Assembly (NCBI GenBank): GCA_947503765.1 | Contig: CANNFA010000005.1 | Location: 124,001 to 188,000, forward strand | Length of the DNA: 64,000 nt | DNA from: an uncultured Paracoccaceae bacterium | Lineage (GTDB): Bacteria > Pseudomonadota > Alphaproteobacteria > Rhodobacterales > Rhodobacteraceae | Reading direction: 5' to 3' | Translations under genes and position numbers: made by a program | The notes under the pieces: generated by a model | Told to the model about the DNA's origin: nothing | Seen by the model: only the letters and a program-made list of their open reading frames with translations | Databases searched by the model: none | Shown here: one piece after another, positions 34,710 to 61,947 of the stretch | How positions within the stretch are numbered: the stretch's first letter is position 1 | How the letters are laid out: every line of letters starts with the position of its first letter

Positions 34710-35582
34710 CTACATCGCCGCCAGTCCGATCAGCCGCGACCAGCTGGCATCGACATCGGCCTGAAGCTCGGCGCGGTCGTCGTCCTTGAGGTGGCGATAG
34801 CGTTTCTGCTGGGCCAGATAATCGTCCAGCGGATGCTTCTTTTCGTCCTGCGCGACCTTGTAGGTCAGCCCGTCCTCGACCTCGATCAGCGGAAACACCC
34901 CGCTTTCCACGGCAAGCCGCGCGGTTTTCACGGCGGCATTGTCGGCCACGCCCCAGCCGGGCAGGCAGGGGATCAGCACAATGATGACCTTCATGCCGCG
35001 CATCCCCTTGGCCTTTTTCACCTTGGCCTTCATGTCGTTCAGATGCGAGGGGCTGACGGTGGCGATATAGGGGATGCGGTGCGCGGCCAGGATCTCGATC
35101 AGGTTCTTCTTCCGGGTCGTCTTGCCCAGGGGCGTGCTGCCGGTCGTGGCGCTTTTGGGGGTGGAGGAGCTCTTCTGCCCGCCGGTGTTCATGTAGCCTT
35201 CATTGTCGAAACAGACATACAGGATATCCTCGTTGCGCTCTGCCGCCGAGGATAGCGATTGCAGGCCGATATCGTAGGTGCCGCCATCGCCGGCCAGGCA
35301 CAGCACGGTGGTGTCGTCGCGCCCCATCGCCCGCAGCGCGCGTTTCACGCCCGCGGCAGAGGCGGCGGCGCTTTCCAGCGTGCCGTGCAGGAACGGGATC
35401 TTCGCCGAACTCATCGGATGGCCGCCCAGGATCACCGCCGTGCAGGACGGCACCACGACGCCGACCGCATCGGTGCCGACCTCGTTCAGAATCACCCGCA
35501 TCGCCAGCGCCTCGGCGCAGCCGGCACAGGCCACATGGCCCGAACAGAACTGGCCGGTATCGGTATAGTCGATCTTTTCCAT
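34710..35582 (-). CDS. 2-oxoacid oxidoreductase beta subunit (TPP-binding; phenylglyoxylate/pyruvate-type)
   Basis: Cytoplasmic beta subunit of 290 residues of a CoA-acylating 2-oxoacid oxidoreductase. It carries the Fe-S pattern GHVACAGC (Cys13, 19, 22) plus a distant Cys206 in IPCLPGWG. The thiamine-diphosphate motif is GDGGTYDIG at 99-107 with DNEGYMNTGGQ at 126-136, the PorB pattern. Its partners follow the order gamma, FAD/Fe-S, alpha, beta. Substrate is unclear: pyruvate-like acids or phenylglyoxylate. The surrounding aromatic genes favour the latter, or a role in supplying electrons to 4-hydroxybenzoyl-CoA reductase. Confidence 0.87.
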   Translation of the reverse strand: MEKIDYTDTGQFCSGHVACAGCAEALAMRVILNEVGTDAVGVVVPSCTAVILGGHPMSSAKIPFLHGTLESAAASAAGVKRALRAMGRDDTTVLCLAGDGGTYDIGLQSLSSAAERNEDILYVCFDNEGYMNTGGQKSSSTPKSATTGSTPLGKTTRKKNLIEILAAHRIPYIATVSPSHLNDMKAKVKKAKGMRGMKVIIVLIPCLPGWGVADNAAVKTARLAVESGVFPLIEVEDGLTYKVAQDEKKHPLDDYLAQQKRYRHLKDDDRAELQADVDASWSRLIGLAAM

Positions 35583-35586
35583 GTCT

Positions 35587-36753
35587 CTACTCCACCCAGA
35601 TCGGGTCTGGCGATGTCGGGGCGCCGAGATGCTCGCGCGCCAGGGCTTCGAGGGTTTCGACCGGCACGCTGACACCGCCGACCCCGGCCAGCAGCCCGTG
35701 CAGGCCCGGCGCGTCATCCATGCCGAAAAGGGCGGCCTTGATTTCCTGATGCAGCACGCCGCCGGTGCCCGGCGAATAGTTGCGGTCAAGAACCAGGGCG
35801 GTGCCGAACCGCGCCAGCGCGGCGCGCAGATCGGCCAGGGGCAGGGGCCGGAACAGCCGCAGCTTGAGCAGGCCGGCCTTGACGCCATCCGCGCGCAGCC
35901 GGTCCACCGCGTCGCGGGCGGTGCCGGTCATGCTGCCCATGGTGACAAGGACGATCTCGGCGCCCTCGGTCTTGTAGAATTCCAGCGGCGCCGATTTGCG
36001 CCCGGTCAGCGCGGCCCAGTCCTGTCCGGCCTGCACGGTCAGATCGGCGATGCCGGCCATCGCGATCTGCATTTCGCGCCGGGTGCGGTTCCATTGCACC
36101 TGATCGACCGGCGCCCCGACCGACCGGCCGATCGTGGTATCGAGCTTGATTTCGCGTGCCTGGCGCGGCAGGTACGATTGCACCAGATCGGCCGAAGGCA
36201 GGCTGACCGGTTCCACCGAATGCGACACGTAGAAGGCATCGTGATTGACCATCACCGGCAGGCCAGCACTCTCGGCGATGCGGAAGGCCTGGATCACGGT
36301 ATCGAGCGAATCCTGCGGGTTCTCGGTGTAAAGCTGCACCCAGCCGGTATCGCGCTGCGACAGGCTGTCGATCTGGTCGGGCCAGAACCCCCAGGGCGCG
36401 GCGGGGGTGCGGTTGACGTTGAACATCACGATCGGCATCCGCGCCCCGGCCGCGTAATGCAGCAATTCGTGCATCAGCAGCAGCCCCTGCGAGGAGGTTG
36501 CGGTGAAGACCCGCGCCCCCAGCGCCGAGGCGGCGATGCAGCCCGCCATCGCCGAATGTTCGCTTTCGGGGGTCAGAAGCTCTGCCTTGAACTGGCCCTG
36601 GCTCTGGAATTCGATCAGCTTTTCCAGGATCGGCGTCTGCGGCGTGATCGGATAGAGCGGGGCGACATCGGGAACGGCCAGCCGCACCCCCCAGGCGACG
36701 GCGTGATTGCCGTTCATCAGGCGCATGTCTTCGTTCAGAACGGGGGCATTCAT
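35587..36753 (-). CDS. 2-oxoacid oxidoreductase alpha subunit
   Basis: Alpha subunit of 388 residues. It starts MNAPVLNEDMRLMNGNHAVA and carries the PorA hallmark APLYPITPQTPILEKL near residue 32, then SEHSAMAGCIAASALGARVFTATSSQGL. The C-terminal domain has VTMGSMTGTARDAVDRLR and VLDRNYSPGTGGVLHQEI. Starts by ATGA overlap with the FAD/Fe-S subunit and is followed after four bases by the beta subunit. It supplies the pyrimidine-side site of the thiamine centre in this enzyme class. Confidence 0.9.
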   Translation of the reverse strand: MNAPVLNEDMRLMNGNHAVAWGVRLAVPDVAPLYPITPQTPILEKLIEFQSQGQFKAELLTPESEHSAMAGCIAASALGARVFTATSSQGLLLMHELLHYAAGARMPIVMFNVNRTPAAPWGFWPDQIDSLSQRDTGWVQLYTENPQDSLDTVIQAFRIAESAGLPVMVNHDAFYVSHSVEPVSLPSADLVQSYLPRQAREIKLDTTIGRSVGAPVDQVQWNRTRREMQIAMAGIADLTVQAGQDWAALTGRKSAPLEFYKTEGAEIVLVTMGSMTGTARDAVDRLRADGVKAGLLKLRLFRPLPLADLRAALARFGTALVLDRNYSPGTGGVLHQEIKAALFGMDDAPGLHGLLAGVGGVSVPVETLEALAREHLGAPTSPDPIWVE

Positions 36754-38402
36754 CGTGCCTCATCCTCTTGCATGTGGATCGAGCCTGTGGGGCATTCGGC
36801 GACGCACAGCCCGCAGCCCTTGCAATAGTCGGTTTTCACGCTGTAGCCGCCGTCTTCCAGCTTGGTGATCGCCATGTCGGGGCAGTAGAAATAGCAATTG
36901 TCGCAGAAGATGCAGGTGCCGCAACTGAAGCAGCGCGACGCTTCCTTGCGGGCCTGCGCCTCGGTCAGGGGTTCCTGCACCTCGTCGAAGCTGGCCAGCC
37001 TTGCCACCACATCGGCGACGGGCTGATGCGTGCGGGCGTGGTCCTCCTGGTAGGCGGGGTTGATCCGGTCATAGCCGACCTGCGGCGCGATTTCCGGCAC
37101 CGGGGCGGCAATGCCCGTTTGCAGGAAACCGGCAATGGCATGGGCGGCCTCCTTGCCCATGCCGACCGCCTCGGTCACGAAGCGTTCCATGCTGGCCACG
37201 TCGCCGCCGGCGAAGAGGCCCGGCGCGCTGGTCTGCCAGCCCGGCGCGGTGGCGATCACCGGGCCGTTCGCGTCCAGCAATTCGGCCCAGCGGGCAAGGT
37301 CGGCATCCTGGCCGATGGCCGGAATGATCGTGTCGGCATTCAGGGTGAATTCGCTGCCGGGGACGGGATCGGCGCGGAACTGGCCGCGTTGCGCACCCGG
37401 CTGGAATTCGACCCTGATGCAGTGCGCAGTGACGCTTTCTCCCTCGAAGCTGGCCGAATGCAGCATCGCGGCGCTGACGAAACCGATGCCTTCCTCGGCG
37501 CCCTCGTCCAGCTCGACCTTCTGCGCGGGCAGGCGGCCTTCGGGTTCCAGCGTCAGCACGGTGACGGCACGGCCCAGCCGCCGGCAGGTGCGCGCCACAT
37601 CCATCGCGGCGCTGCCGCCGCCGATCACCACCACATGCGCGCCGGTGCGGGCGATCTGTTCGTCCTGCGGCGCGGCCAGGAAATCGGCGCTGTCGACGAT
37701 CCAGTCCTGATCGTAATCGAGCGTGGGCAGGCGTTTGGGCCTGCTGGCCCCGGTCGCCAGGAACACCGCGTCATGTTCGGCGCGCAGGCGTTCCAGCGCC
37801 GCTTCGTCCATCACCTCGGCATTGAGGCGGATGTCGATGCCCATCGCGGCGATGCGGTTCACCTCGCCGTCCAGCACGGCCCGGTCCAGCCGGTAGGAGG
37901 GGATGCCGTGCCGCATCAGCCCGCCAAGCTGCCCGCTGGCCTCGAACAGGGTCACGGCATAGCCCTGGCGGCGCAGCTGATAGGCGGCCGACAGCCCGGC
38001 CGGCCCGCCGCCGATAATGGCGACCGATTGCGCGCGTTCCTCTTCGGGGGCGGGAAAGGCCCAGCCCTGATCCAGCGCCGCGTCACCGACGAATCGCTCC
38101 AGGCTGCAGATGCCCACCGTCTCGTCATGTTCGACCCTGTTGCAGGCGGTTTCGCACGGATGATGACAGATGCGCCCGGCAATGGCTGGGAAGGGGTTGT
38201 TGTCGGCCAGCGTGACGAAGGCGCCGTGGATATCGCCGTTCTTGACCTGGCCGATCCAGGTGGCGATGCGCCCGTTGACGGGGCAGGCGCCCAGGCAGGG
38301 CGACGGCTGATCCTGGTAATTCGGCAGCGCCGCGCGCCAGGTGCCGGTCAGGCGGTTCTCGCTCGACAGGTGGGTCCAGAGCGGGGAAAGCTGTTCGTTC
38401 AT
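36750..38402 (-). CDS. FAD/NAD(P)-binding Fe-S subunit fused to ferredoxin domain (PadH+PadF-like)
   Basis: A 550-residue protein linking the 2-oxoacid oxidoreductase to a pyridine nucleotide. The N-terminal Fe-S region has Cys36 and Cys40 (CLGACP) and CHHPCETAC near residue 80, as in glutamate-synthase small subunits. FAD motif AIIGGGPAGLSAAY lies near 130, NAD(P) motif VVVIGGGSAAMD near 260 and GLFAGGDVAS near 395. The last 75 residues hold two [4Fe-4S] motifs, CFSCGTCIFCDNCYFYCP and CKGCGLCVAECP. In phenylglyoxylate:NAD oxidoreductase the flavin subunit and the ferredoxin subunit are separate proteins; here they look fused. Function as electron exchanger is inferred. Confidence 0.87.
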   Translation of the reverse strand: MNEQLSPLWTHLSSENRLTGTWRAALPNYQDQPSPCLGACPVNGRIATWIGQVKNGDIHGAFVTLADNNPFPAIAGRICHHPCETACNRVEHDETVGICSLERFVGDAALDQGWAFPAPEEERAQSVAIIGGGPAGLSAAYQLRRQGYAVTLFEASGQLGGLMRHGIPSYRLDRAVLDGEVNRIAAMGIDIRLNAEVMDEAALERLRAEHDAVFLATGASRPKRLPTLDYDQDWIVDSADFLAAPQDEQIARTGAHVVVIGGGSAAMDVARTCRRLGRAVTVLTLEPEGRLPAQKVELDEGAEEGIGFVSAAMLHSASFEGESVTAHCIRVEFQPGAQRGQFRADPVPGSEFTLNADTIIPAIGQDADLARWAELLDANGPVIATAPGWQTSAPGLFAGGDVASMERFVTEAVGMGKEAAHAIAGFLQTGIAAPVPEIAPQVGYDRINPAYQEDHARTHQPVADVVARLASFDEVQEPLTEAQARKEASRCFSCGTCIFCDNCYFYCPDMAITKLEDGGYSVKTDYCKGCGLCVAECPTGSIHMQEDEAR

Positions 38403-38407
38403 TGGTG

Positions 38408-38956
38408 TCAGGCCTCCTCGGCGATCGCGGCCATCAGGTCATGTGCCTCGCGGCAGGCGGCGACATTCTCGGCCTTACGGGCCGGGGCGGATTGTTCGAT
38501 GATGCGGCACATCGTGTCGATGTCGGGCTGGCCCAATGCAGCGACGAAACCGCCCAGAAGCGCGGAATTGACCACCTTGCCCATATCGTTGCGCCGGGCG
38601 ATGGCGCGCCCGTCGACCGGGATGATCCGGTGCGGGCCGGTGCCGGTCAGATCCTGCGACGTGCGCGGCGAATTGACCACGATCCGCGCGCCGGGGCGGG
38701 CAAGCGCCAGGAAATCGGCGTCAAGCAGGCTGTCGTCGAAACATAGCAGCGCGTCGGCCTGCACGATGTTGCAGCGCAGCCGGATCGGGCCGTCATCGAC
38801 CCGCAGCGACGACATGACCGGCGTGCCGCGCCGCGCGCCGCCATAGGTCGCGAAGGTCTGCACCTGCCGGCCCATCGCAAAGAAGGCCTGCGCCAGCAGG
38901 TTGCCGGCCGTCTGGGCGCCCTGTCCGCCGCGCCCCAGGATGATGATCTCGATCAT
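38408..38956 (-). CDS. 2-oxoacid oxidoreductase gamma subunit
   Basis: Gamma subunit of 182 residues. It opens with IIILGRGGQGAQTAGNLLAQ, the GRGGQG hallmark of PorG/VorG, then TYGGARRGTPVMSSLRVDD. The start at 38956 overlaps the stop of the aryl-CoA ligase gene by ATGA, so ligase and oxidoreductase are translated together. Order gamma, electron subunit, alpha, beta resembles the phenylglyoxylate oxidoreductase locus of Azoarcus. Confidence 0.88.
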   Translation of the reverse strand: MIEIIILGRGGQGAQTAGNLLAQAFFAMGRQVQTFATYGGARRGTPVMSSLRVDDGPIRLRCNIVQADALLCFDDSLLDADFLALARPGARIVVNSPRTSQDLTGTGPHRIIPVDGRAIARRNDMGKVVNSALLGGFVAALGQPDIDTMCRIIEQSAPARKAENVAACREAHDLMAAIAEEA

Positions 38957-40623
38957 GATGCGCCTTTCTGTGCCAGTGTCAGGGCCGGCTTGCGGGCCGC
39001 CGGAGTCGTGCCGGAGGCCGGTTCGGATGCCGCGTCCGTTCGGGGGGCCGCGCAGGGGGGCGTGCCGCCCGCCATCTCGCGCAGACGGTACCGCTGGATC
39101 TTGCCGGTCGCGGTTTTCGGAAGCAAGTCCAGCGCGACGATCCAACGCGGATATTTCCACAGGCCGGCCGTTTTCTTGACATGGGTCTTCAGCTCGTCGA
39201 ACAGCGTCTCGGCCGTCTGGCCGGGGGCCAGCACGACAAAGGCGCGCGGCTTGACCAGCCCCTCGTCATCGGTATCGGCGATCACCGCCGCCTCGATCAC
39301 CGCCGGGTGCGAGACCAGCGCCTGTTCCACCTCGGCCGGAGAGACCCAGCGGCCGGCGACCTTGAACATGTCGTCGGCGCGCCCGGCATAATGGTAATAG
39401 CCTTCCGCGTCGCGGGTATACTTGTCGCCGGTGCGCACCCAGTCGCCGGCAAAGGTGGCGCGGGACTTGTCGCGCTGGTTCCAGTAGCCATCGCCGGCAG
39501 AGCCGCCCGAGACCAGCAATTCGCCCAATTCGTCATCGGCCACGTCGCGGCCGTCTTCGTCCACCAGCCGCAGCCGGTAGCCGGGAAATTCGCGCCCCAC
39601 AGTGCCATAGCGGATATCGTCCGGCCGGTTGGAGATGAAGGCATGCAGCATCTCGGTCGAGCCGATGCCGTTCAGGATGCCGACCCGCATGCGCTTTTCC
39701 CAGGCCAGCCCGACATCTTCGGGCAGCGCCTCTCCGGCCGAGACACAAAGGCGCAGACGGTCGGATCCGTTCTCTTGGCGGCAGGCGGGATCGGCCAGCA
39801 TCGCGGCGTAAAGCGTGGGTACCCCGAAGAACAGCGTCGGACGCGCGCGCGCCAGCACCGACATCACTGTGGCGGGCGAAGTGCGGTCCGGCAGCAGCAC
39901 GGTGGTGGCGCCGACCGACATCGGCAACGCCATGCTGGCCCCGTGCCCGTAGGCAAAGAACATCTTGGCGGCGGAAAAGCAGATATCGTCGTGCTGGATG
40001 CCCAGAACATGCCGGCCATAGGTGTCGGCGATGTATTGCGGGCTGGTATGGACGTGGCGCACCCCCTTGGGCGCGCCGGTCGAGCCCGAGGAATAGAGCC
40101 AGAAGGCGGTTTCGTCGCTACAGGTGGCGGCCGTGTCGAACCTGTCGCTCGCGCGCGCCATCAGGATCTGAAGTCGCGGATAGGGATCGTTTTCGATCGC
40201 TCCGGTATCGTCGCCGGCGACGATGACATGACGCAGCGCCGGAAGCTGGTCCAGCAGCGGGGCGATCACCTCCAGCAGCGGCGCGGACAGGACGATCGCC
40301 TCGGCGCGGCTGTCCTTGAGCATGTATAGGTAATTATCGGCCGTCAGCAGGGTGTTCAGGCAGACCGGCACGATCCCGGCCCGAATCGCCCCCCAGAAGA
40401 CCGAAGGATAATCGACATCGTCCAGCATCAGCACGGCAACCCGCGCCTCGGGGCGGATTCCCAGCCCGGTCAGCAGGTTGGCGACGCGCATCGTGGCGGC
40501 CTGAAGCTGGCCATAGGTCAGCGACCGCGCGGGATCGACGAAGGCGATCTCGTGGCCGTAGCCACAAGAGACATTGCGGTCCACCATTTCGGCGGCGGCA
40601 TTGTACTCCCTCGGCTTTCCCAT
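38953..40623 (-). CDS. Aryl-CoA ligase (benzoate/4-hydroxybenzoate-CoA ligase family)
   Basis: AMP-forming ligase of 556 residues activating an aromatic acid with CoA. The AMP motif is YSSGSTGAPKGVRHVH near residue 165, with the benzoate-ligase-type AAKMFFAYGHGASMALPM near 205, GIGSTEMLHAF near 305 and the C-terminal catalytic lysine region PKTATGKIQRYRLRE near 510. A Pro/Ala-rich tail of about 40 residues follows, absent from its paralogue at 44870. The start at 40623 follows GGGAGAAGG; an in-frame ATG nine codons upstream is less well placed. Heads the operon with the 2-oxoacid oxidoreductase. Substrate may be 4-hydroxybenzoate or another ring acid. Confidence 0.87.
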   Translation of the reverse strand: MGKPREYNAAAEMVDRNVSCGYGHEIAFVDPARSLTYGQLQAATMRVANLLTGLGIRPEARVAVLMLDDVDYPSVFWGAIRAGIVPVCLNTLLTADNYLYMLKDSRAEAIVLSAPLLEVIAPLLDQLPALRHVIVAGDDTGAIENDPYPRLQILMARASDRFDTAATCSDETAFWLYSSGSTGAPKGVRHVHTSPQYIADTYGRHVLGIQHDDICFSAAKMFFAYGHGASMALPMSVGATTVLLPDRTSPATVMSVLARARPTLFFGVPTLYAAMLADPACRQENGSDRLRLCVSAGEALPEDVGLAWEKRMRVGILNGIGSTEMLHAFISNRPDDIRYGTVGREFPGYRLRLVDEDGRDVADDELGELLVSGGSAGDGYWNQRDKSRATFAGDWVRTGDKYTRDAEGYYHYAGRADDMFKVAGRWVSPAEVEQALVSHPAVIEAAVIADTDDEGLVKPRAFVVLAPGQTAETLFDELKTHVKKTAGLWKYPRWIVALDLLPKTATGKIQRYRLREMAGGTPPCAAPRTDAASEPASGTTPAARKPALTLAQKGAS

Positions 40624-40662
40624 CGCGCCCTTCTCCCAAAACGCTTCCATTTGGATAATAAG

Positions 40663-40789: not shown

Positions 40790-41707
40790 TTGGGACAGAG
40801 CTTGCTGAAGGACAAGGTCGCGCTGGTGACCGGGGCGGGGCGCGGTGTCGGGCGCGATATCGCGCTGATGATGGCGGCGAATGGCGCCAGTATCATCGTC
40901 AATGATCTGGGCAGCGATGGCGGCGGCGAGGGCAGCGACGACGCGCCCGCCCGCGACGTGGTCCGCGAGATCGAGGCGGCGGGCGGCCGGGCAGAGGTCA
41001 ATTTCGGATCGGTTGCCGATTACGATCAGGCGCGGGCCATGGTCGATCAGGCGACCGGCAGTTTCGGCCGACTGGACATCGTGGTGAACAATGCCGGGAT
41101 CCTGCGCGATTCGATCTTTCACAAGATGACCGAACGCGATTTCGACCTGGTGATCGGCGTTCACCTGAAGGGATCGTTCAATGTCAGCCGCTGCGCCGCC
41201 GATCTGTTCCGCGCGCAGCAATCGGGCTGTTTCATCCACATGACCTCGACCTCGGGGCTGATCGGCAATCTGGGCCAGGCAAATTACATGGCCGCCAAGC
41301 TGGGCATCGTCGGGCTGTCGAAATCCATCGCGCTGGACATGGCGCGCTATAACGTGCGGTCCAACTGCATCTCGCCCTTTGCCTGGAGCCGGATGATCGG
41401 CTCGATCCCCGAGGATTCGCCCGAACAGGCCGCGCGGGTCGAAAAGATGCGGCAGATGACGCCCGACAAGATCGCGGTGATGGCGACAGCACTGGCCGCG
41501 GATGCGGCCCGGGACGTCACCGGGCAGATTTTCGCGGTGCGCAACAACGAGATTTTCCTGATGGGGCAATCGCGCCCCCTGCGCGGGATGCAGCGATCCG
41601 AGGGCTGGAGCGCGCAAAGCGTGCTGGATCATGCCTTTCCCGCGCTGCGGCCGAATTTCTATCCGCTCGACCGGACCGCCGACATCTTCGGATGGGACCC
41701 GGTCTGA
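40790..41707 (+). CDS. SDR-family dehydrogenase (3-hydroxyacyl-CoA dehydrogenase-like) with C-terminal extension
   Basis: Short-chain dehydrogenase of 305 residues. Cofactor motif GAGRGVGRDIA lies near residue 16, VNDLG follows as in multifunctional-enzyme type 2 hydroxyacyl-CoA dehydrogenases, then NNAGILRD near 100, and YMAAK supplies the catalytic Tyr/Lys near 165. About 50 residues after the usual end (MQRSEGWSAQSVLDHAF onward) are extra. The start is a TTG at 40790; no in-frame ATG lies before residue 24, so the initiation codon is uncertain. It is divergent from the ligase and upstream of the TRAP importer, and may act in beta-oxidation-like steps after ring opening. Confidence 0.78.
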   Translation: MGQSLLKDKVALVTGAGRGVGRDIALMMAANGASIIVNDLGSDGGGEGSDDAPARDVVREIEAAGGRAEVNFGSVADYDQARAMVDQATGSFGRLDIVVNNAGILRDSIFHKMTERDFDLVIGVHLKGSFNVSRCAADLFRAQQSGCFIHMTSTSGLIGNLGQANYMAAKLGIVGLSKSIALDMARYNVRSNCISPFAWSRMIGSIPEDSPEQAARVEKMRQMTPDKIAVMATALAADAARDVTGQIFAVRNNEIFLMGQSRPLRGMQRSEGWSAQSVLDHAFPALRPNFYPLDRTADIFGWDPV

Positions 41708-41842: not shown

Positions 41843-42877
41843 ATGACCAATAGAAGAACCCTGCTTGGAGTTGCCGCCGCCGCGGCGATGGCGGCCGGAC
41901 TGCCCGGAACGGCGTCGGCGGCCGAATTCGAATATACCCTGCAAAGCTTTCTTCCGGCGCAGGCGACCATTCCGGCGATGATCATCGACGTGTGGGCCGA
42001 CAAGGTCGAGGAGGCGTCGGACGGGCGGATCGAGATCACGCGCCATGCCTCGATGCAGCTTGGCGGCAAGCCGCCCGAGCTTTACGACCAGGCGATCGAC
42101 GGGATGCTCGACATCACCTGGAACGTGAACGGCTATACGCCCGGACGGTTCCCGCGCAGCGAGGTGTTCGAGCTGCCGTTCATGGTGACCAATGCCGCCG
42201 CCGCCTCGGCCGCCTACTGGACGATGATGGAAAAGGACTTCCAGAATTCGGAATTCCAGGATCTCAAGGTTCTGGGCGTCTGGGTGCACGGGCCCGGTGT
42301 GATCCATTCCAACAAGCCGGTCACGGAAATCGCCGACATGAACGGCATGAAGATCCGCGGCCCGTCGCGGCTTGCCAATGCGCTGCTCGAAGAGCTGGGC
42401 GCGACACCGGTCGGCATGCCGATCCCGTCGGTGCCGGAGGCGCTGTCCAAGGGCGTGATCGACGCGGCCATGGTCCCGTGGGAAGTGACGCGGGCGCTGA
42501 AGACATCGGAACTGGTGGATAACCACACCGAATTCACCGGCGAGATGCCCTATACCGTGACCTTCGTGCTGGCGATGAACCAGGGCAAGTTCGATGCCCT
42601 GCCCGAGGATCTGCAAAAGGTCATCATGGACAATTCGGCCATGGGATTCTCGGTCTTTGCCGGCACCACCCAGGCCGGCGAGGATACGCCGGGCCGCGAT
42701 GCCGCGATCGCGCTTGGCAACAACGTCATCACCCTTGACGAGGCGCAATCGGACGTCTGGGCCGAGGCCGCGCAGCCGGTCTACGAGCAATGGGTCGCAG
42801 AGATGGACGCCAAGGGCATCGACGGACAGGCCCTGATCGACGAGGCCAGAGCCCTGATGGCCGAGTACGGTAAATAA
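41843..42877 (+). CDS. TRAP transporter substrate-binding protein (DctP)
   Basis: Periplasmic binding protein of 344 residues. The signal peptide MTNRRTLLGVAAAAAMAAG has an RRTLLG motif and likely ends TASA. The mature part begins AEFEYTLQSFLPAQATIPAM; the ligand-arginine region is MNGMKIRGPSRLANALLEELG near residue 170. A strong AAGGGAGGAC site precedes the ATG. Followed by DctQ and DctM, then benzoate-CoA ligase, so benzoate or a related aromatic acid is the likely cargo; that is inferred from location. Confidence 0.88.
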   Translation: MTNRRTLLGVAAAAAMAAGLPGTASAAEFEYTLQSFLPAQATIPAMIIDVWADKVEEASDGRIEITRHASMQLGGKPPELYDQAIDGMLDITWNVNGYTPGRFPRSEVFELPFMVTNAAAASAAYWTMMEKDFQNSEFQDLKVLGVWVHGPGVIHSNKPVTEIADMNGMKIRGPSRLANALLEELGATPVGMPIPSVPEALSKGVIDAAMVPWEVTRALKTSELVDNHTEFTGEMPYTVTFVLAMNQGKFDALPEDLQKVIMDNSAMGFSVFAGTTQAGEDTPGRDAAIALGNNVITLDEAQSDVWAEAAQPVYEQWVAEMDAKGIDGQALIDEARALMAEYGK

Positions 42878-42883
42878 GCGGGC

Positions 42884-42912
42884 CCGCCGCGCCGTCACAC
42901 ATGGCGCGGCGG
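42884..42912 (+). terminator. Intercistronic hairpin after dctP
   Basis: CCGCCGCGCC and GGCGCGGCGG form a perfect 10-bp stem with a 9-base loop, beginning seven bases after the binding-protein stop codon. It matches in position, not sequence, the hairpins after the other binding-protein genes. Confidence 0.6.
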
Positions 42913-42946
42913 CCATTTGCGAAACGCACAGAATCCGGGGTTCTCC

Positions 42947-43528
42947 ATGCACCGATTTATGGAACGGCTGGCCCGCGTCATGGCGGCACTGGGCGGGCTT
43001 GTGCTTTCTTCTCTGATCATCGTGACCTGCCTGTCGGTCCTGGGGCGCGTCCTGAACACCGTTCTGCACGGCTGGATCGGCACGCTGGCGCCGGGGGCGT
43101 CGCAGGCGCTGCTCGACCTGGGCGTGGGGCCGATCCTGGGCGATTTCGAACTGGTCGAGGCCGGGGTCGCCTTTGCCATCTTCGCCTTCATGCCGCTGTG
43201 CCAGATCAGTGCGGGCCATGCCAGCGTCGATCTGCTGACCAACATGCTGGGGCCGCGTACCAACCGGTTCCTGCAGATGGTGATCGACATCGTCTTTGCG
43301 GTGGCGCTGATCCTGATCGCGGTCAAGCTGTATGACGGGCTGCTGGCGAAACGCCGATACGGCGAGACGACCTTCCTGCTCCAGTTTCCGATCTGGTGGT
43401 CCTATGCGGCCAGCCTGTTCGCCGCGTCCATCGGCGCGCTGGCCGGGGTCTATGTCGCCATTGTCCGCTGTGTCGAATTCGCCACCGGCAAGAGCATTCT
43501 CAACGGCGGCAGCGGAGCCGAAGCATGA
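42947..43528 (+). CDS. TRAP transporter small permease (DctQ)
   Basis: Membrane protein of 193 residues with four hydrophobic segments and GPILGDFELVEAGVAFAIFAF in the middle, the DctQ-like acidic helix start. I use the ATG at 42947, after CCGGGGTT, rather than a TTG ten codons upstream. The stop overlaps the DctM start (ATGA). Confidence 0.86.
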   Translation: MHRFMERLARVMAALGGLVLSSLIIVTCLSVLGRVLNTVLHGWIGTLAPGASQALLDLGVGPILGDFELVEAGVAFAIFAFMPLCQISAGHASVDLLTNMLGPRTNRFLQMVIDIVFAVALILIAVKLYDGLLAKRRYGETTFLLQFPIWWSYAASLFAASIGALAGVYVAIVRCVEFATGKSILNGGSGAEA

Positions 43529-50630: not shown

Positions 50631-50810
50631 ATGTTGATCGACCGCGCCCAGGCCCCGACACCGCGCACCGAAGCGCTGGCCCGCGACGTGGCGCGGCTGC
50701 ACGGTCAATGCGTCGGCTGCACCGATTGCCGGGGTGTTTGCCAGGTATTGCTGGATACGCTGGTCGTGCCGGGCCTTGTCCTGGGGGCGGGGCAGGGACG
50801 CCAGGAATGA
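50631..50810 (+). CDS. Small Cys-rich ORF between boxB and boxA
   Basis: Fifty-nine residues starting MLIDRAQAPTPRTEALARD. The centre holds CVGCTDCRGVC, a C-x2-C-x2-C-x3-C pattern at about residues 27-37 that could bind a metal or Fe-S cluster. A strong GGAGGACGCA site precedes the ATG, and its TGA overlaps the boxA ATG (50807-50810), so boxA translation probably depends on it. I do not recognise a named family; similar short QCVGC-type proteins may exist in related bacteria. Ribosome-binding site, coupling and Cys spacing argue for a real gene. Confidence 0.68.
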   Translation: MLIDRAQAPTPRTEALARDVARLHGQCVGCTDCRGVCQVLLDTLVVPGLVLGAGQGRQE

Positions 50811-53439: not shown

Positions 53440-55563
53440 GTGAACAGACAAAGGCAGGGCAAAGCGCAAGGCAGGGTCGCATTCGAGATGCACGGCCGGA
53501 TCGCAATCCTTGAAATCGACAATCCGCCGGTCAATGCCGGATCGCATGCGGTGCGCACCGGCATCGCCGAGGGCATCGCCCGCGCCACCGAAAACCGCGC
53601 CGAGGGGGCGGTACTGCTGGGCGCCGGGCGGTGTTTCGTGGCCGGGGCCGATCTGCGCGAATTCGGGCAGAAGCTGGCACCGCCGGACCTGCCGCAGGTG
53701 ATCGCCCTGATCGAGGCGGCGCCGTTCCCGGTCGTCGCCGCGCTGCATGGCGTGGCGCTTGGCGGCGGGCTGGAGCTTGCCCTGGGCTGCGATTACCGGT
53801 TGGCCGATCCGGCGGTGGAACTGGGCCTGCCCGAGATATCGCTGGGCATCATCCCCGGCGCCGGCGGCACCCAGCGTCTGCCGCGCCTGATCGGCGGCGC
53901 CCGCGCCATCGAGGTGATCTGCGGCGGCGCGCGGATTAGCGGGGCCGAGGCGCTGGAGCTGGGGCTGGTCGATGTGCGTGCCGATGGACCGCTGCTGGAA
54001 GCCGCGCTTGCCTTTCTTGCCGAAACGCCCCGGCCCAAGCGGCGCACGCTGGACCTGCCCCCGCCGGGCGAGGTGCCGGGGACACTCGACGCGGCCGAAC
54101 AAAGGGCGCTGCGGCGCGGCAAGGGCCGGCCCAACGTCACCGAGGCGATCCGCCTGATCCGCGCCGCCATTTCCGGGGATGCGGGCACATCCGCCGCGCT
54201 TGCCGATGAACGCGCGGTGTTCCAGAGACTGCGCGTCGGCGCGGATGCGAAGGCGCTGCGTTACCTGTTCTTTGCCGAACGCCGCGCCGGGCGGGTCGAG
54301 GGGCTGGACATGGGGCTTGCGCGCCGCATCGACAGCGTCGCGGTGATCGGCGGCGGCACGATGGGGCAGGGTATCGCCCGCGCCTTTCTGGCCGCCGGCC
54401 TGTCCGTGACGCTGGTCGAACAGGACGCGGCCGCGCTGGAAAGGGCGCTTGGCGGCATTGCCGCCAGCCTTGACGCGCAAGTCAGAAAGGGCCGCCTGGG
54501 CGCCGATGCGCGCGCCGAACGGGCCGCGCTGCTGACCGGAACCATCGAGTATGACGCGCTTGCCGGCTGCGATCTGGCGATCGAGGCGGTGTTCGAGGAC
54601 ATGAAGCTCAAGCAGGACTTGCTGGCCCGGCTGGAGGCGGCGCTGCCCGCCGGCGCGATCATCGCCACCAACACCTCTTACCTGGATATCGACACGATGG
54701 CGGCGCATCTGGACGATCCCGGCCGCGTGATCGGCCTGCATTTCTTCAGCCCTGCCGATATCATGCCCCTGCTGGAACTGGTGCGTGCCGCGCGGACCTC
54801 GGACACCGCGCTGGCCACCGGGCTGAAACTGGCGCGCAGGCTGGGCAAACAGCCGGTCGTGGCCGGCGTCGCCGAGGGCTTCATCGGCAACCGGATCTAC
54901 GCCGCCTATCGCCACCGCGCCGAATTGCTGGTGCTGGACGGCGCCGCGCCCGAGGCGGTGGACCGCGCCATCGAGGATTTCGGCTTCGCGATGGGGCCTC
55001 TCGCCGTGTCCGACCTGTCGGGGCTGGACATCGCCTGGGCGCGGCGCAAACGGCTTGCCCAGGAGCGCGAACAGGCGGGGCAGGCCGCCGCGCCGCGCGA
55101 TCCGCTCGTCGCCGATCTGCTCTGCGAGGCCGGACGGCTGGGGCGCAAGACCGGCAAGGGCTGGTACGATTATTCGGGCGCCGAAAAGGGCGGCAGACCC
55201 GCGCCGCGCCCCGATCCGGATGTTGCCGCGCTGATCGACCGTGCCCGCGAGGAGGCCGGGATCACCAAGCAGGAATTCGATCCGCGTAGCATCCAGCGCC
55301 AGCTTCTGGCCGCCATGGTGAACGAGGCTGCCTGTGTGATGGCCGACGGTATCGCGCAGCGCGCCTCGGACGTGGATGTGACGCTGGCCAATGGCTATGG
55401 CTTTCCGCGCTGGCGCGGCGGGCCGCTTTACTGGGCGTCGGGGCAGGATCGCGGCGCATTGCTTGCCGATCTGGATGCGCTGGCGCAGGCGATGGGGCCG
55501 GGCCACCGCACCGGGCCGGTCGATGCCATCCTGAACGATTTTCAAACCCGCAAAGAGGGCTGA
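53440..55563 (+). CDS. Enoyl-CoA hydratase / 3-hydroxyacyl-CoA dehydrogenase fusion (FadB/FadJ-like)
   Basis: Bifunctional beta-oxidation enzyme of 707 residues. The crotonase domain (about 1-190) has CFVAGADLREFG, ALGGGLELALG and ELGLPEISLGIIPGAGGTQR; both catalytic-position glutamates are present. The dehydrogenase domain has the NAD motif VAVIGGGTMGQGIARAF near residue 305, FEDMKLKQ near 388, GLHFFSPADIMPLLE with its His near 434 and NRIYAAYR near 485. It starts with GTG at 53440. It would convert dehydroadipyl-CoA to 3-oxoadipyl-CoA, feeding the thiolase downstream. Confidence 0.92.
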   Translation: MNRQRQGKAQGRVAFEMHGRIAILEIDNPPVNAGSHAVRTGIAEGIARATENRAEGAVLLGAGRCFVAGADLREFGQKLAPPDLPQVIALIEAAPFPVVAALHGVALGGGLELALGCDYRLADPAVELGLPEISLGIIPGAGGTQRLPRLIGGARAIEVICGGARISGAEALELGLVDVRADGPLLEAALAFLAETPRPKRRTLDLPPPGEVPGTLDAAEQRALRRGKGRPNVTEAIRLIRAAISGDAGTSAALADERAVFQRLRVGADAKALRYLFFAERRAGRVEGLDMGLARRIDSVAVIGGGTMGQGIARAFLAAGLSVTLVEQDAAALERALGGIAASLDAQVRKGRLGADARAERAALLTGTIEYDALAGCDLAIEAVFEDMKLKQDLLARLEAALPAGAIIATNTSYLDIDTMAAHLDDPGRVIGLHFFSPADIMPLLELVRAARTSDTALATGLKLARRLGKQPVVAGVAEGFIGNRIYAAYRHRAELLVLDGAAPEAVDRAIEDFGFAMGPLAVSDLSGLDIAWARRKRLAQEREQAGQAAAPRDPLVADLLCEAGRLGRKTGKGWYDYSGAEKGGRPAPRPDPDVAALIDRAREEAGITKQEFDPRSIQRQLLAAMVNEAACVMADGIAQRASDVDVTLANGYGFPRWRGGPLYWASGQDRGALLADLDALAQAMGPGHRTGPVDAILNDFQTRKEG

Positions 55564-55566: not shown

Positions 55567-56769
55567 ATGCAATCCGTGTTCATCTGCGATTACATCCGCA
55601 CGCCGATCGGCCGCTATGGCGGCGCCCTGTCGGGCATCCGCAGCGACGATCTGGCCGCGCTGCCGCTGCGCGCGCTGAAGGACCGGCATTCCGGCCTCGA
55701 CTGGGAAGCGGTGGTCGACGTGATCTATGGCTGCAGCAACCAGGCGGGCGAGGACAACCGCTGCGTCGCGCGCATGGCGCTGCTGTTGGCGGACCTGCCC
55801 GAAACGCTGTCGGGCACCACGATCAACCGGCTTTGCGGGTCGGGGATGGATGCGGTGCTGACCGCCTGGCGAAGGCTTGCGGTGGGCGAGGGCGATCTTG
55901 CCATCGCCGGCGGTTCGGAAAGCATGAGCCGCGCGCCCTTCGTCATGCCCAAGGCCGGCGTCGCCTTTTCGCGCCAGACCAGCATCGAGGACACGACGAT
56001 CGGCTGGCGCTTCGTCAATCCGCTGATGCAGCAGAAATACGGCACCGAATCGATGCCCGAGACGGCCGAGAACCTGGCCGAGGATTTCGCCATCTCGCGC
56101 GAAGACCAGGATGCCTTTGCCCTGCGCTCGCAACAGCGGGCGGCGGCGGCGATCGCTTCGGGCACCCTGAGGGGCGAGATCATGCCCGTGCCCATCCCGC
56201 AGCGGCGCGGCGATCCGGTGATCTTCGACACCGACGAACATCCGCGCGCCACCACGGCCGAGAAGCTAGCCGCGCTGCCCGCGCCGTTCCGCAAGGGCGG
56301 AAGCGTGACGGCCGGCAATGCGTCGGGCGTCAATGACGGGGCGGCGGCGCTGATCCTGGCGACCGAGGCGGGGGCGCGGCGGCACGGGCTGACCCCGCTG
56401 GCGCGGATCACCGGCGGCGCCACGGCGGGCGCGCCGCCGCGCATCATGGGGATCGGGCCGGTCCCGGCGACGCAAAAGCTGTGCGCGGCGCAGGGCCTGG
56501 CACCGGGCGATTTCGACGTGGTCGAATTGAACGAGGCCTTCGCCGCCCAGGCGCTTGCGGTACTGCGCCAGCTTGGCCTGCCGGACGATGCAGGCCATGT
56601 GAACCCCGATGGCGGCGCCATCGCCTTTGGTCATCCGCTGGGCATGTCGGGCGCGCGGATCACCGGAACCGCCGCGCGGCGGCTTGCCGCCGGCGGGGGC
56701 CGCCGCGCGCTGGCGACGATGTGCATCGGCGTGGGGCAGGGCATCGCGATATCGCTGGAGGCGGTCTGA
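55567..56769 (+). CDS. pcaF: 3-oxoadipyl-CoA thiolase
   Basis: Thiolase of 400 residues cleaving 3-oxoadipyl-CoA to succinyl-CoA and acetyl-CoA. Nucleophile Cys90 lies in [10 protein letters not shown], His356 in [10 protein letters not shown] and Cys386 in MCIGVGQG, a complete thiolase set. The N terminus [16 protein letters not shown] and [21 protein letters not shown] are typical of beta-ketoadipyl-CoA thiolases (PcaF/PaaJ). It lies three bases after the fused hydratase/dehydrogenase gene. Confidence 0.92.
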
Positions 56770-56898: not shown

Positions 56899-57345
56899 TC
56901 AAGCGCCGGCGGCGGCCGCGACCTCTTCCTTGCGGGCCATGGCGCGGCCGTGCCGCTCGACCTGTTTGAGCATCGTGGCCAGCGTGATCGAGCTGTAGGT
57001 CGACATGACGATATCGTTGATCTCTTTCGACACCTCGAATAGCACCCATTCCTCGGCCGTCGCCTTTGACGGATCGGACAGCTTGCAGGTGGTGGAGGTA
57101 TCCTCGAACAGGCTGACGATATCGAACAGCGTCGTGCGCCGGGCATTGCCGGAAAAGCTGTAGCCGCCGCCGACGCCGCGGATCGACTGGACCAGACCGG
57201 CGCGGCCAAGCGTCAGCAGCACCTTGGCAAGGTGATGCGCCGAAACGCGGTATTTCGCGCCGATCTCGGCGGCGGAAATCTGGCGCTCGGGGTTCGAGGC
57301 CAGTTCCATCAGGGCGTAGATGGCAAGGCGGCTGGATTGTTGCAC
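56899..57345 (-). CDS. Rrf2-family regulator (BadM-like)
   Basis: Regulator of 148 residues. The N-terminal winged helix reads SSRLAIYALMELASNPERQ, AAEIGAKYRVSAHHLAKVLLTLGRAGLV and RGVGGGYSF, the Rrf2 pattern. Only one cysteine (TTCKLSDPSK) is present, so it lacks the three-Cys Fe-S set of IscR and NsrR. The start is GTG at 57345 after AAAGGAAA. The neighbouring acetyltransferase gene and aromatic genes recall BadM and BadL of Rhodopseudomonas palustris, where BadM represses anaerobic benzoate genes. Likely targets are the AGTACT palindromes; that is inference. Confidence 0.85.
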   Translation of the reverse strand: MQQSSRLAIYALMELASNPERQISAAEIGAKYRVSAHHLAKVLLTLGRAGLVQSIRGVGGGYSFSGNARRTTLFDIVSLFEDTSTTCKLSDPSKATAEEWVLFEVSKEINDIVMSTYSSITLATMLKQVERHGRAMARKEEVAAAAGA

Positions 57346-57398
57346 GATGTTTCCTTTGCGATCAGGCGGGACGCGCCAGGCGATGGGCCGCGGCGCTT

Positions 57399-57890
57399 TC
57401 AGTCTTCCAGGGTCATTTCCAGTTGAATGTAGGGGCCGGCGGTCATGCCTTCGCCGCGAAAGAACGACATGTGCAGCGGGTTCTGGCGCGGCACCATGGT
57501 GCGGACCTTGGTGATGCCGACCTGCCGGAACTCGTTGCACATCGCCTGGAACAACCGCTCGCCGATATGCTGCTGGCGGTGATCGGGATCGACCGAGACG
57601 GCGAAGATCCAGCCGCAGGGTTCCGAGCCGAATTCCCAGACCCGCACCTCGCCGGCGATCAGGCCGAGGATCCGCGAGCTGTCCGGCGTGTCGGCATGTT
57701 CGGCGATCAGGAAGAACCGTTCGTCCAGACGCCGCGATCCGTAGCGTTCATAGATGTCGTGCCAGTATTCGGGCTTGGCCTGTCCGGTGACACGCGCATC
57801 CAGATCGACGACCTGGTCCAGATCCTCCGCCGTCGCCCGCCGGATGCGAAGCGTCGGGGCCAGGGACGGGTCCGTGACGTTGACGTTCAT
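57399..57890 (-). CDS. GNAT acetyltransferase (BadL-like)
   Basis: GNAT-fold acetyltransferase of 163 residues. It begins with LRIRRATAEDLDQVVDLDAR, and the acetyl-CoA loop is VDPDHRQQHIGERLFQAM near residue 105, with NPLHMSFFRGEGM near 142. I use the ATG at 57890 after GAGGAGC. It lies upstream of and co-directional with the Rrf2 gene, 53 bases apart, as BadL is with BadM. BadL has been linked to acetylating aminobenzoates; here the substrate could be an aromatic amine or an enzyme lysine, such as those of acyl-CoA ligases. Confidence 0.82.
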   Translation of the reverse strand: MNVNVTDPSLAPTLRIRRATAEDLDQVVDLDARVTGQAKPEYWHDIYERYGSRRLDERFFLIAEHADTPDSSRILGLIAGEVRVWEFGSEPCGWIFAVSVDPDHRQQHIGERLFQAMCNEFRQVGITKVRTMVPRQNPLHMSFFRGEGMTAGPYIQLEMTLED

Positions 57891-58175: not shown

Positions 58176-58646
58176 ATGAAGCGGATCGTCAGTCTGGAAA
58201 TCAATGGTCGCACGGTCGAGGAGATCGTGCCGGACAACATGCTGCTGGTCGATCTGCTGCGCGACCGGCAGGGCCTGACCGGGACCAAGCAAGGTTGTGA
58301 CGGCGGCGAATGCGGCGCCTGCACGGTGCTGGTCGACGGGCGGCCCCGGCTGTCCTGCATCGCCCTTGTGGCAGGCTGCGACGGCAAGCGGATCGAGACG
58401 ATCGAAGGACAGGCGAAGGGCGGCCATCTGTCGGCGCTGCAACGCGCCTTTCACGAAAACCTGGGCGCGCAATGCGGGTTCTGCACGCCGGGGATGATCC
58501 TGGCCGCCGAAGGCCTGCTGCGCGACAACCCCGCCCCCGACGAGGATGAGATCCGGGTCGCGCTCGGCGGCAACCTGTGCCGCTGCACCGGCTATGTGAA
58601 GATCATCGAATCGGTGCAGGTCGCCGCGGCGGAGATGCGGTCATGA
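58176..58646 (+). CDS. hcrC: 4-hydroxybenzoyl-CoA reductase gamma subunit ([2Fe-2S])
   Basis: Small iron-sulfur subunit of 156 residues in the xanthine oxidase family. The plant-type [2Fe-2S] cluster ligands are Cys41, 46, 49 and 61; the second cluster uses Cys100, 103, 135 and 137 ([15 protein letters not shown]). It passes electrons between the molybdenum subunit and the flavin subunit. The gene order small, large, medium and the special medium subunit identify the complex as 4-hydroxybenzoyl-CoA reductase rather than a xanthine or CO dehydrogenase. Stop overlaps hcrA by ATGA. Confidence 0.92.
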
Positions 58647-60949
58647 GCGGCGCCATCGGACAGCGCGTTCCGCTGGTCGACGGGATCGAAAAGGTCACCG
58701 GCCGCGCGCAATATACCGCCGATCTGGACAGCCGCGACGCGCTGGTCGGGCGGATCCTGCGATCCCCGGTCAGCCACGGGCGGATCCTGCGCATCGACAC
58801 CGCGAAGGCAGAGGCGCTGCCGGGCGTCACGGCCGTCATCACCGGCGACGATTGCGCGCTGACCTTCGGCGTCATCCCGATCGCGATGAACGAATATCCC
58901 ATGGCGCGCGGCAAGGTGCGCTATCGCGGCGAACCGATCGCCGCCGTCGCGGCCGAGGATGCGGCCATCGCCGCCCGCGCGCTGGACCTGATCGAGGTCG
59001 AGATAGAGGAATTGCCCGCCTGCTATACCCCGGCCGAATCCCGCGCGCCGGGCGCCACGCTCTTGCATGACGACAAGCCGGGCAACCTGGAACGCGACGT
59101 GCATCACGTCTTTGGCGATGTCTCTGCCGGGTTCGCCGAGGCCGACCTGGTGCGCGAGGACAGCTTCGACTGCGCCGAGATCAACCATGCCCAGATGGAG
59201 CCGCATGCCGCCCTGGCCGAATATGACAGCACCCGCGACCGGCTGACGCTGCATTCGGTCAGCCAGGTGCCGTTCTACGTGCATCTGATGCTGGCCCGCT
59301 GCCTGGAAATGGACAGCTCGCAAATCCGCGTGGTCAAGCCCTTTGTCGGCGGTGGCTTCGGCGCCCGGACCGAGACGCTGAATTTCGAGATCATCGTCGC
59401 GCTGCTGGCCCGCAAGGTCGGGGGCAAGGTGATGATGCGCCTGACGCGCGAGGAAACCTTCCTGACCCATCGCGGCCGCCCCGCGACGCAGGTGGACCTC
59501 AAGATCGGCATGACCCGGAGCGGCAAGATCACCGCCGTCGAATGCGAGGCGGTGATGGCCGGCGGCGGCTATGCCGGCTACGGTCTGGTGACGATCCTTT
59601 ATGCCGGCGCCCTGCTGCATGGCATCTATGACGTGCCCAACGTCAAGTATGACGGCTACCGCGTCTATACCAATGCGCCGCCCTGCGGGGCGATGCGCGG
59701 GCATGGCACGGTCGATGTGCGCCACGCCTTCGAATGCCTGCTGGACCGGATGGCGCGCGAATTGGGGCTCGATCCCTTCACGGTACGCCGCGCCAACCTG
59801 CTGAGCGCGCCGATGTTCACCGCCAACGGGCTGATGGTGAATTCCTACGGGCTGGACGAATGCCTGGACAAGGTAGAACAGGCCAGCGGGTGGGCGGCGC
59901 GCAAGGGCAACCTGCCGCCGGGACGCGGCCTGGGCATGGCCTGTTCGCATTACGTCAGCGGCGCTGCCAAGCCGGTCCACTGGACCGGAGAGCCGCATGC
60001 CGTGGTGTCGATGAAGCTCGATTTCGACGGATCGGTGACGGTGCTGACCGGGGCCTCCGATATCGGCCAGGGCTCGACCACCATCGTGGCGCTGGCGGCG
60101 TCGGAAATCCTGGGCATCGGGCTGAACCGGATCCGTACCGTCACCAATGACAGCGTCATCACCCCCAAGGATAACGGATCCTATTCCAGCCGCGTGACCT
60201 TCATGGTCGGCAATGCGGCGATCGAGGCGGCGAAAGCGATGCGCGCCAAGCTGGTCGCGGCGGCGGCGAAAAAGCTGGAAGTCGATCCGGACGATATCGA
60301 ATGCGAGGGCGAGACGTTCTTTGTCCACGGCGCGTCGCAATCGGTCCTGCCATTCCAGGACGTGGTCATCGCGGCGCTGGCCGAAGAGGGCACGATCACC
60401 GTCAAGGGCACCTTTTCCACCCCGGTCGAGGCTCAGGGTGGCAAGCATCGCGGCGGCGCAGTCGGCTCTACCATGGGGTTTTCCTACGGCGCCCAGGTGG
60501 TCGAGGTCGAAATCGATCCCGATACCTGCGCGATCAGCGTCGAAAAGGTCTGGGTTGCGCTCGATTGCGGCTTTGCCATCAACCCGCTGGCGGTCGAGGG
60601 GCAGATCGAAGGCTCTGTCTGGATGGGGATGGGCCAGGGCCTGTCCGAGGAAACCCATTACATCGACGGGCTGCCGGCCCATGCCAACCTGACCGATTAC
60701 CGCTTTCCCACCATCGCCGATTCGCCGCCCATAGAGGTGCATATCGTCGAAAGCATCGACCCCTTGGGCCCGTTCGGCGCCAAGGAGGCCGGCGAAGGCG
60801 CGCTGTCGGGCTTTCCGCCCGCGCTGGTCAACGCGCTGGCCGATGCGCTGGGGATGGATGTGGATTTCCTGCCCGTGACGCCCGACCGGGTGCTTGAGGC
60901 GCTGACGAAATTCCGGCGGGCCAACCGCCGCAAGGAGGCCGCGGAATGA
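58643..60949 (+). CDS. hcrA: 4-hydroxybenzoyl-CoA reductase alpha subunit (molybdopterin)
   Basis: Molybdenum cofactor subunit of 768 residues that carries the reductive dehydroxylation site. Family segments: [19 protein letters not shown] near residue 235, [19 protein letters not shown] near 350, [19 protein letters not shown] near 475 and [20 protein letters not shown] near 715 with the Glu that approaches Mo. Length fits HcrA. The reaction removes the para-hydroxyl of 4-hydroxybenzoyl-CoA as water using low-potential electrons, giving benzoyl-CoA. Overlaps both neighbours by ATGA. Confidence 0.92.
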
Positions 60950-61947
60950 GCGAAGCCCTGCCCGAATTCCAATTGCTCGCCCCCGCATCGGTGGACGAGG
61001 CGGTTGCCGCCCTTGGCGCCAATCCCGGCGCGCTGGCAAGCGCGGGCGGCACCGATCTGATCGTGCGGCTGCGCAAGGGGCTGTCGGAAACCGGAACGCT
61101 GGTCGATCTGGGCGGCATCGCCGCGCTGAACGACATCACGCCGGGCGCCGGTGGCGGGTTGCGGATCGGCGCCGGCGTGACGCTGGCCGCGCTGGCAAAA
61201 TCCGCCCCGCTGGCCGAATATCCGGCCATCCCCAGGGCGGTAGCGACGGTCGCCGGCCCCACCCACCGAGAGGTCGCGACGCTGGGCGGAAACCTGTGCC
61301 AGGACACCCGCTGCGTCTATTACAACCAAAGCCATTGGTGGCGGCAATCGAACGGGTTCTGCCTGAAATATCGCGGCGAGATCTGCCATGTCGCGCCCAA
61401 GGGCAATCGCTGCCGCGCGGCGTTCAGCGGCGATATCGCCCCGGCGCTGATGGTGCATGGCGCGAGCCTGGAAATCGCCGGCCCCGACGGCACAAGGCAT
61501 CTGCCGCTGGCCGAGTTCTACCACGAGGACGGCGCCGCCCATCTGGGCCTTAATCCCGGCGAGATCGTCGTCGCCGTCCTGCTTCCGCCGCCCGGCCCGG
61601 TCTCGGACTATGCCAAGGTGCGGGTACGCGCCGCGGTCGATTATCCGCTGGCCGGAATCGCTGTGGCCTGCACACAGGCGCGCGAGGGCGCCCGGTTCAC
61701 CCTGGCGATCACCGGCACCAATTCGGCGCCGATGCTGGTCGATATCGCGGATGCGCTGGCCGAAGGGGCCGATGCGGATGCCTACTTCGCGGCGCTGGAA
61801 AAGCAGGTGCAGAAAGCCGTCTCGCCGCAGCGCACAAGCACGCTGGCGCCGCATTACCGCCGCTTGTCGGTCTCGGCACTGGCGGCGCGGCTGGCTCGGC
61901 AGACGGCCGGCTTCGCGCCCGAAGATTCGCAGCGGCCCGAACCATGA
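60946..61947 (+). CDS. hcrB: 4-hydroxybenzoyl-CoA reductase beta subunit (FAD and extra [4Fe-4S])
   Basis: FAD subunit of 333 residues. FAD motifs [10 protein letters not shown] near residue 32 and [10 protein letters not shown] near 111 are standard. Between them and the C-terminal domain lies an insert with Cys123, 139, 147 and 156 (TRCVYYN, NGFCLK, EICHVA, NRCRAA), matching within one position the [4Fe-4S] ligands known in Thauera HcrB. Xanthine dehydrogenases lack this loop, so it is diagnostic. The cluster lets electrons flow from ferredoxin toward the Mo site, opposite to normal family members. Confidence 0.94.

Follow-up and report, generated by a model that had tools for sequence, protein, structure and literature searches.

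The coexistence of an oxic and an anoxic route acting on benzoyl-CoA is an arrangement of a known kind, as in Aromatoleum and Thauera. Within it, 4-hydroxybenzoyl-CoA reductase (HCR) is an oxygen-sensitive, low-potential enzyme, regarded as anaerobic; moreover, in Thauera a 2-oxoacid:ferredoxin oxidoreductase accompanies the Bcr-type benzoyl-CoA reductase pathway, as it does in the locus described below. The facultative betaproteobacterium Aromatoleum aromaticum EbN1 harbors an anaerobic arm with a benzoyl-CoA reductase and a box aerobic arm, both acting on benzoyl-CoA, together with two benzoate-CoA ligases; both benzoyl-CoA gene sets are made under essentially all the tested conditions, and a presumptive reductive dehydroxylation is listed as common to oxic and anoxic growth (PMC9765128). 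In R. palustris, a GNAT protein (BadL) makes acetamidobenzoates, freeing the Rrf2-type repressor BadM from the bad operon (PMC6191541). Here, we analyzed a window (that is, the whole stretch of 64,000 nucleotides corresponding to C5:124001-188000, C5 being the contig) from an alphaproteobacterial genome (3.98 Mb, 100% complete), which embeds an hcr operon and a box cluster. According to gene content and order, the window very probably covers the left half of an island for facultative degradation of aromatic acids, in which hcr and the bcr genes lying just past its end would serve anoxia and the box genes oxia, the two arms meeting at benzoyl-CoA.

The original prediction had depicted a hybrid route, in which 4-hydroxybenzoate is dehydroxylated reductively and the resulting benzoyl-CoA is epoxidised by the box enzymes, no benzoyl-CoA ring reductase gene being visible. 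The latter statement holds inside the window, but not for the genome. The search of the genome for HGD-D proteins retrieved two matches, BcrB and BcrC, both on the same contig shortly beyond the window, and the reading of the 40 kb past its end revealed a complete class I reductase operon, starting at C5:189409, 1.4 kb after the window end (C5:188000), and spanning the region from 1.4 to 9.2 kb past it. The absence of a ring reductase is thus ruled out, its apparent lack being a truncation artefact, since the window ends before the bcr operon. The hcr and box genes were judged against curated family cut-offs and solved homologues, with Pfam used for domains. The gene order after the window is ferredoxin-bcrDABC, followed by dch, oah, and had (C5:189409-197236, locus L029):

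C5:189409-189651, ferredoxin, from the scan of the contig past the window.
C5:189677-194323, BcrD, BcrA, BcrB, and BcrC (444, 765, 847, and 698 bits versus cut-offs of 313, 578, 487, and 421, respectively).
Ending at C5:197236, the dienoyl-CoA hydratase Dch, the 6-oxocyclohexene-carbonyl-CoA hydrolase Oah, and the 6-hydroxycyclohexene-carbonyl-CoA dehydrogenase Had (TIGR03189, TIGR03200, and TIGR03201; 407, 626, and 571 bits versus 293, 464, and 339, respectively).
C5:197489-200004, KorAB, divergent and flanking the bcr operon.

At the level of gene content, this is the complete bcr/bad ring reductase that the original prediction had itself named as evidence against its proposal, and a pathway from HCR to Box in a genome devoid of ring reductase does not apply here. 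As in Thauera aromatica, the class I reductase is of the Bcr type (and not of the bzd type) and is accompanied by Dch, Oah, and Had; the gene order is different, and additional genes lie between hcr and bcr (see below).

Upstream of the window end, hcrC, hcrA, and hcrB form a single operon of overlapping open reading frames (ORFs) at 58176-61947 on the plus strand, with all three subunits represented:

58176..58646 (+), HcrC, iron-sulfur subunit of HCR (TIGR03193, 250.4 bits, just below the cut-off of 257.8; no better family).
58643..60949 (+), HcrA, molybdenum subunit (TIGR03194, 1238.9 bits versus 994.55; 1013.7 bits with 1RM6_A).
60946..61947 (+), HcrB, FAD subunit with a 4Fe-4S insert (TIGR03195, 413.2 bits versus 404.55).

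The subunits and the 4Fe-4S insert are the same as in the HCR from Thauera aromatica (1RM6), and the HcrB of this locus aligns almost from end to end with that of the latter (1RM6_B, 287 bits). Cysteine residues occur at positions 118, 123, 139, 147, 156, and 242; those of the insert (123, 139, 147, and 156), which had been located exactly in the original prediction, align with 1RM6_B and are kept in essentially all the homologues compared, the last one being offset by 1-2 residues in part of them. Family cut-offs and solved homologues confirm the assignment of the trio to the HCR family. The nearest relatives of this HcrB belong to Rhodobacteraceae/Roseobacteraceae.

The box genes lie a few kilobases away, on the same strand:

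44870..46420 (+), benzoate-CoA ligase family protein 2, opening the box cluster (TIGR02262, 738 bits; 511 bits with the benzoate-CoA ligases 4RLF/4EAT).
46417..47265 (+), alpha/beta hydrolase inside the cluster (Abhydrolase_1).
47429..49081 (+), BoxC (TIGR03222, 952 bits versus 712).
49127..50578 (+), BoxB, oxygenase component of the benzoyl-CoA 2,3-epoxidase (TIGR03225, 907 bits versus 499; 655.6 bits with the benzoyl-CoA oxygenase structure 3PER).
50631..50810 (+), ORF of 59 amino acids, Cys-rich (CVGCTDCRGVC), between boxB and boxA and overlapping the boxA start.
50807..52000 (+), BoxA, reductase component of the benzoyl-CoA epoxidase (TIGR03224, 524 bits versus 459).
52003..52485 (+), 4HBT-type thioesterase (4HBT_2).
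52482..53390 (+), BoxR-type regulator with XRE and shikimate-kinase-like domains (NF006015, 366 bits versus 204).
53488..55563 (+), enoyl-CoA hydratase/3-hydroxyacyl-CoA dehydrogenase fusion (FadJ/FadB-like, 424 bits, under equivalog cut-offs).
55567..56769 (+), 3-oxoadipyl-CoA thiolase of the PcaF type (PRK09050, 668 bits versus 605; TIGR02430, 637 versus 597).

BoxA, BoxB, and BoxC are clustered and each exceeds its own equivalog cut-off, the boxC-boxR span covering 47429-53390 (+); both the thiolase and the fusion protein expected for the lower steps are present.

A pair of putative regulatory genes lies between the box cluster and hcr, and a block of further genes separates the latter from bcr:

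56899..57345 (-), Rrf2-family regulator, BadM-like by context (adjoining hcr in 19/19 long loci).
57399..57890 (-), GNAT acetyltransferase, BadL-like by context (Acetyltransf_1; adjoining hcr in 19/19 long loci).
61944..62213 (+), DUF2249 protein (PF10006; in 16/19 long loci).
62210..63484 (+), ORF for a multi-pass membrane protein (in 17/19 long loci).
63598..64000 (+), hemerythrin-like protein (by reading of the sequence), of which only the start is in the window.

The long loci are 19 hcr loci with long flanks, whose neighbors were considered within about 10 kb of hcr. In this sample, Bcr subunits were found near hcr in 13-14 loci and box genes in none of the 19; thus, hcr travels with bcr, and the proximity of box in this genome is local. 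The Rrf2 and GNAT pair (56899-57890) stands beside anaerobic benzoyl-CoA genes, as in the bad island of R. palustris, also an alphaproteobacterium (PMC6191541), and by analogy may follow the BadM/BadL logic. Unlike that island, the Dch, Oah, and Had of this genome match their own NCBIfam equivalogs, i.e., the Thauera-type route, and box is also present. The block of DUF2249, membrane, hemerythrin-like, and double GNAT genes (61944-64000 plus L029:1-1154) recurs in 16-17 of the 19 relatives, and might possibly be involved in oxygen or nitric oxide sensing, or in the protection of the reductases.

Starting from the observed gene content, order, and family membership, we can depict the following scenario for the island, as to its substrates, the flow of electrons, its regulation, and the oxygen conditions under which it works. 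Under anoxic, probably denitrifying conditions, HCR would dehydroxylate 4-hydroxybenzoyl-CoA, the ATP-dependent class I BcrCBAD would reduce the resulting benzoyl-CoA, and Dch, Had, and Oah would process the product, with KorAB reducing the ferredoxin for both HCR and Bcr. Under oxic conditions, BoxBA would epoxidise benzoyl-CoA and BoxC would open the ring; BoxR and the BadM/BadL-like pair probably control the two arms. Of the hybrid route, the assigned enzymes and benzoyl-CoA as a common intermediate stood, whereas the central claim did not, given the adjacent bcr operon and the synteny of hcr with bcr rather than with box. Nor is the coupling of reductive dehydroxylation to box under oxia a new idea, as it was put forward earlier for A. 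aromaticum EbN1 (PMC9765128). Unlike that betaproteobacterium, this alphaproteobacterium has box, hcr, bcr, and the pad-like genes grouped in about 60 kb of a single contig, together with BadM/BadL-like genes. A literature search for HCR together with "box pathway" found nothing, and that for HCR with boxB led to a study of SAR324 bins from hydrothermal plumes, the retrieved portion of which reports BoxB/BoxC and HCR from the same bin group, similarly to this genome; unlike here, these are draft bins, with only a partial anaerobic pathway described in that portion (PMC4782131).

Some points temper the case for the two-regime island. A search for aldehyde-dehydrogenase motifs in the 124 kb around it, rather than in the whole genome, recognised no BoxD (the semialdehyde dehydrogenase), and therefore the aerobic arm may depend on a gene located elsewhere. 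NosZ, encoded elsewhere in the genome, was the sole denitrification gene looked at; it fits denitrification as the anoxic mode, without proving it. Lastly, the substrates of the Por-type oxidoreductase (see below) and of the CoA ligases are predicted ones.

The first alternative extends this scenario: HCR might represent a shared upstream step, feeding bcr in anoxia and box in oxia, which we regard as possible, but tentatively so. pobA was searched for in the genome and not found, while it is present in 12/12 sampled relatives of the same family (four from the genus and eight from the rest of the family), and the four genus relatives possess pobA and lack HCR. By contrast, pobA stands alongside HCR, BCR (benzoyl-CoA reductase), and BoxB in two cultured relatives, Ruegeria marisrubri ZGT118 and Roseovarius amoyensis GCL-8. 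The usual oxic route having gone with the loss of pobA, oxic 4-hydroxybenzoate use may need HCR and then Box, and HCR may thus also serve this use. The oxygen sensitivity and low potential of HCR argue against it, as do the BadM-like regulation and the bcr genes adjoining hcr, which suggest anoxic expression. A presumptive reductive dehydroxylation followed by box, both oxic and anoxic, has been proposed for A. aromaticum (PMC9765128), in agreement with this alternative. Compared with its genus relatives, the genome seems to have exchanged the oxic route for 4-hydroxybenzoate for the reductive one.

That the benzoyl-CoA made by HCR is consumed mainly by box, in micro-oxic conditions and with no ring reductase involved, is improbable. 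It might account for the location of box within 10 kb of hcr, for the missing pobA, and for the strong co-occurrence of HCR and BoxB in a sample of 385 alphaproteobacterial genomes, where HcrB was found in 23 and BoxB in 81; BoxB accompanied HCR in 21 of these 23 genomes, versus an occurrence in 60 of the 362 others (Fisher p ~1e-13, the genomes not being independent). Nevertheless, the complete bcr operon next door and the conserved synteny joining hcr to bcr, not to box, stand against it. In line with the two-regime island, BcrB was present in 39 and BoxB in 45 of the 51 HCR genomes examined. Finally, that the trio is a hydroxylase of some other substrate is highly improbable: the xanthine oxidase family is large (seven members in this genome) and HcrC scores slightly under its cut-off, but HcrA and HcrB exceed HCR-specific cut-offs, none of the insert cysteines is missing, and no other solved relative comes close to 1RM6.

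The two-regime island would also include the following genes, all but the last entry on its left side:

34710..35582 (-), PorB-like beta (thiamine pyrophosphate) subunit of a 2-oxoacid oxidoreductase (TPP_enzyme_C; PRK11864, 317 bits, and PadI, 215 bits, both under cut-off).
35587..36753 (-), PorA-like alpha subunit of the 2-oxoacid oxidoreductase (POR_N, PFOR_II; PorA_Arch, 362 bits, and PadG, 256 bits, under cut-offs; closest solved, the PFOR alpha 9BT4).
36750..38402 (-), GltD-like NAD(P)-binding flavoprotein with a fused C-terminal 4Fe-4S dicluster ferredoxin domain (Fer4_20, Pyr_redox_2, Fer4_21; PRK12771, 538 bits, above cut-off).
38408..38956 (-), PorC-like gamma subunit (POR domain; TIGR02175, 124 bits versus 81).
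38953..40650 (-), benzoate-CoA ligase family protein 1, heading the Por operon (TIGR02262, 757 bits versus 375; closest solved, the benzoate-CoA ligases 4RM3, 4EAT, and 2V7B).
40802..41707 (+), SDR oxidoreductase, transcribed divergently with respect to the Por operon (adh_short).
41888..44838 (+), three genes interpreted as a transporter of the TRAP type, probably for carboxylate/aromatic acid uptake (ORFs 41888-42877, 42959-43528, and 43525-44838, with coding-like composition; family from reading of the sequence only).
C5:200766-206463 (L029:12766-18463), PaaK-like phenylacetate-CoA ligase and PadBCD-like molybdoenzyme, the Pad name coming from context.

The window therefore contains two proteins of the benzoate-CoA ligase family (38953-40650 and 44870-46420). 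The operon at 34710-40650, embedding a CoA ligase and an NAD(P)-coupled 2-oxoacid oxidoreductase of four subunits, may yield benzoyl-CoA from phenylglyoxylate, fed by the PaaK/PadBCD-like genes, a path that can be likened to the anoxic one from phenylacetyl-CoA through phenylglyoxylate to benzoyl-CoA in A. aromaticum EbN1 (PMC9765128). Since the operon is linked to hcr in several relatives and to PadBCD-like genes, phenylglyoxylate is a plausible substrate, with no better than an even chance of being the right one. The identification of the operon with PadEFGHI was rejected: PadG, PadI, and PadE reached 256, 215, and 82 bits versus 700, 700, and 300, respectively, and generic Por models outscored them. 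The molybdoenzyme has a fused Fe-S/anchor subunit and resembles phenylacetyl-CoA:acceptor oxidoreductase; the solved relatives of its PadB-like subunit (L029:15782-18463), of the DMSO-reductase family, are weak (ArrA, thiosulfate reductase), so that the name PadBCD-like is based on size, neighbors, and domain layout. The assemblage of ligase, Por-type oxidoreductase, and GltD-ferredoxin recurs near hcr in loci L032-L034, L036, and L042. As for the 59-residue Cys-rich ORF, the Pfam search gave no match, and it possibly encodes an unannotated small Fe-S protein; a similar short ORF adjoins boxB in Ruegeria marisrubri (L060) and in an Antarcticimicrobium metagenome-assembled genome (L062).

The hybrid route may find a better test ground outside the window. 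Seven of the 385 genomes, from three families (G007; G065, G185, G279, and G357; G300 and G378; loci L076-L089), harbor BoxB and an HcrB that carries the Cys insert, with neither BcrB nor any HGD-D protein detected. pobA is absent from G007, G065, and G378, present in G185, G279, and G357, and represented in G300 by a weak, stop-containing pobA-like frame. Missing contigs could account for some of these cases, but not for G300, whose assembly is a single contig; G007, with 7% contamination, is the weakest of the seven, and the hcr neighborhood at locus L076, from one of these genomes, showed no clear aromatic-acid genes. AFOR matches occur in the genomes of families f65 and f8 and in none of those of f104; the possibility that they represent the class II reductase subunit BamB was discarded for the only protein tested (L092, from G185), which scored 195 bits with the aldehyde oxidoreductase 1AOR versus 56 with BamB (4Z3W); judging from this protein, the matches resemble the aldehyde oxidoreductase type. 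In the HcrB tree, the BCR-negative (benzoyl-CoA reductase-negative) lineages nest among the BCR-bearing ones, with six label changes, which suggests a repeated loss of bcr with hcr and box kept. In a further genome, G210 (L080, 98% complete), HCR is present and both BcrB and BoxB were undetected.

The corrective value of these data is that a seemingly hybrid pathway represents, in all likelihood, an island of a known type that is complete for both regimes, compact, and located in an alphaproteobacterium devoid of pobA. The most interesting lead comes from the BCR-negative genomes, where HCR, thought to be anaerobic, repeatedly persists with box and without a detectable ring reductase. It is conceivable, if somewhat doubtful, that some Alphaproteobacteria run a dedicated route from HCR to Box without a benzoyl-CoA ring reductase, and that the same flow could operate under oxia in the genome analyzed here, which has lost pobA. 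If HCR does work in those organisms under limited oxygen, they would show whether an oxygenase can be fed by a dehydroxylation that is itself oxygen-sensitive and of low potential.

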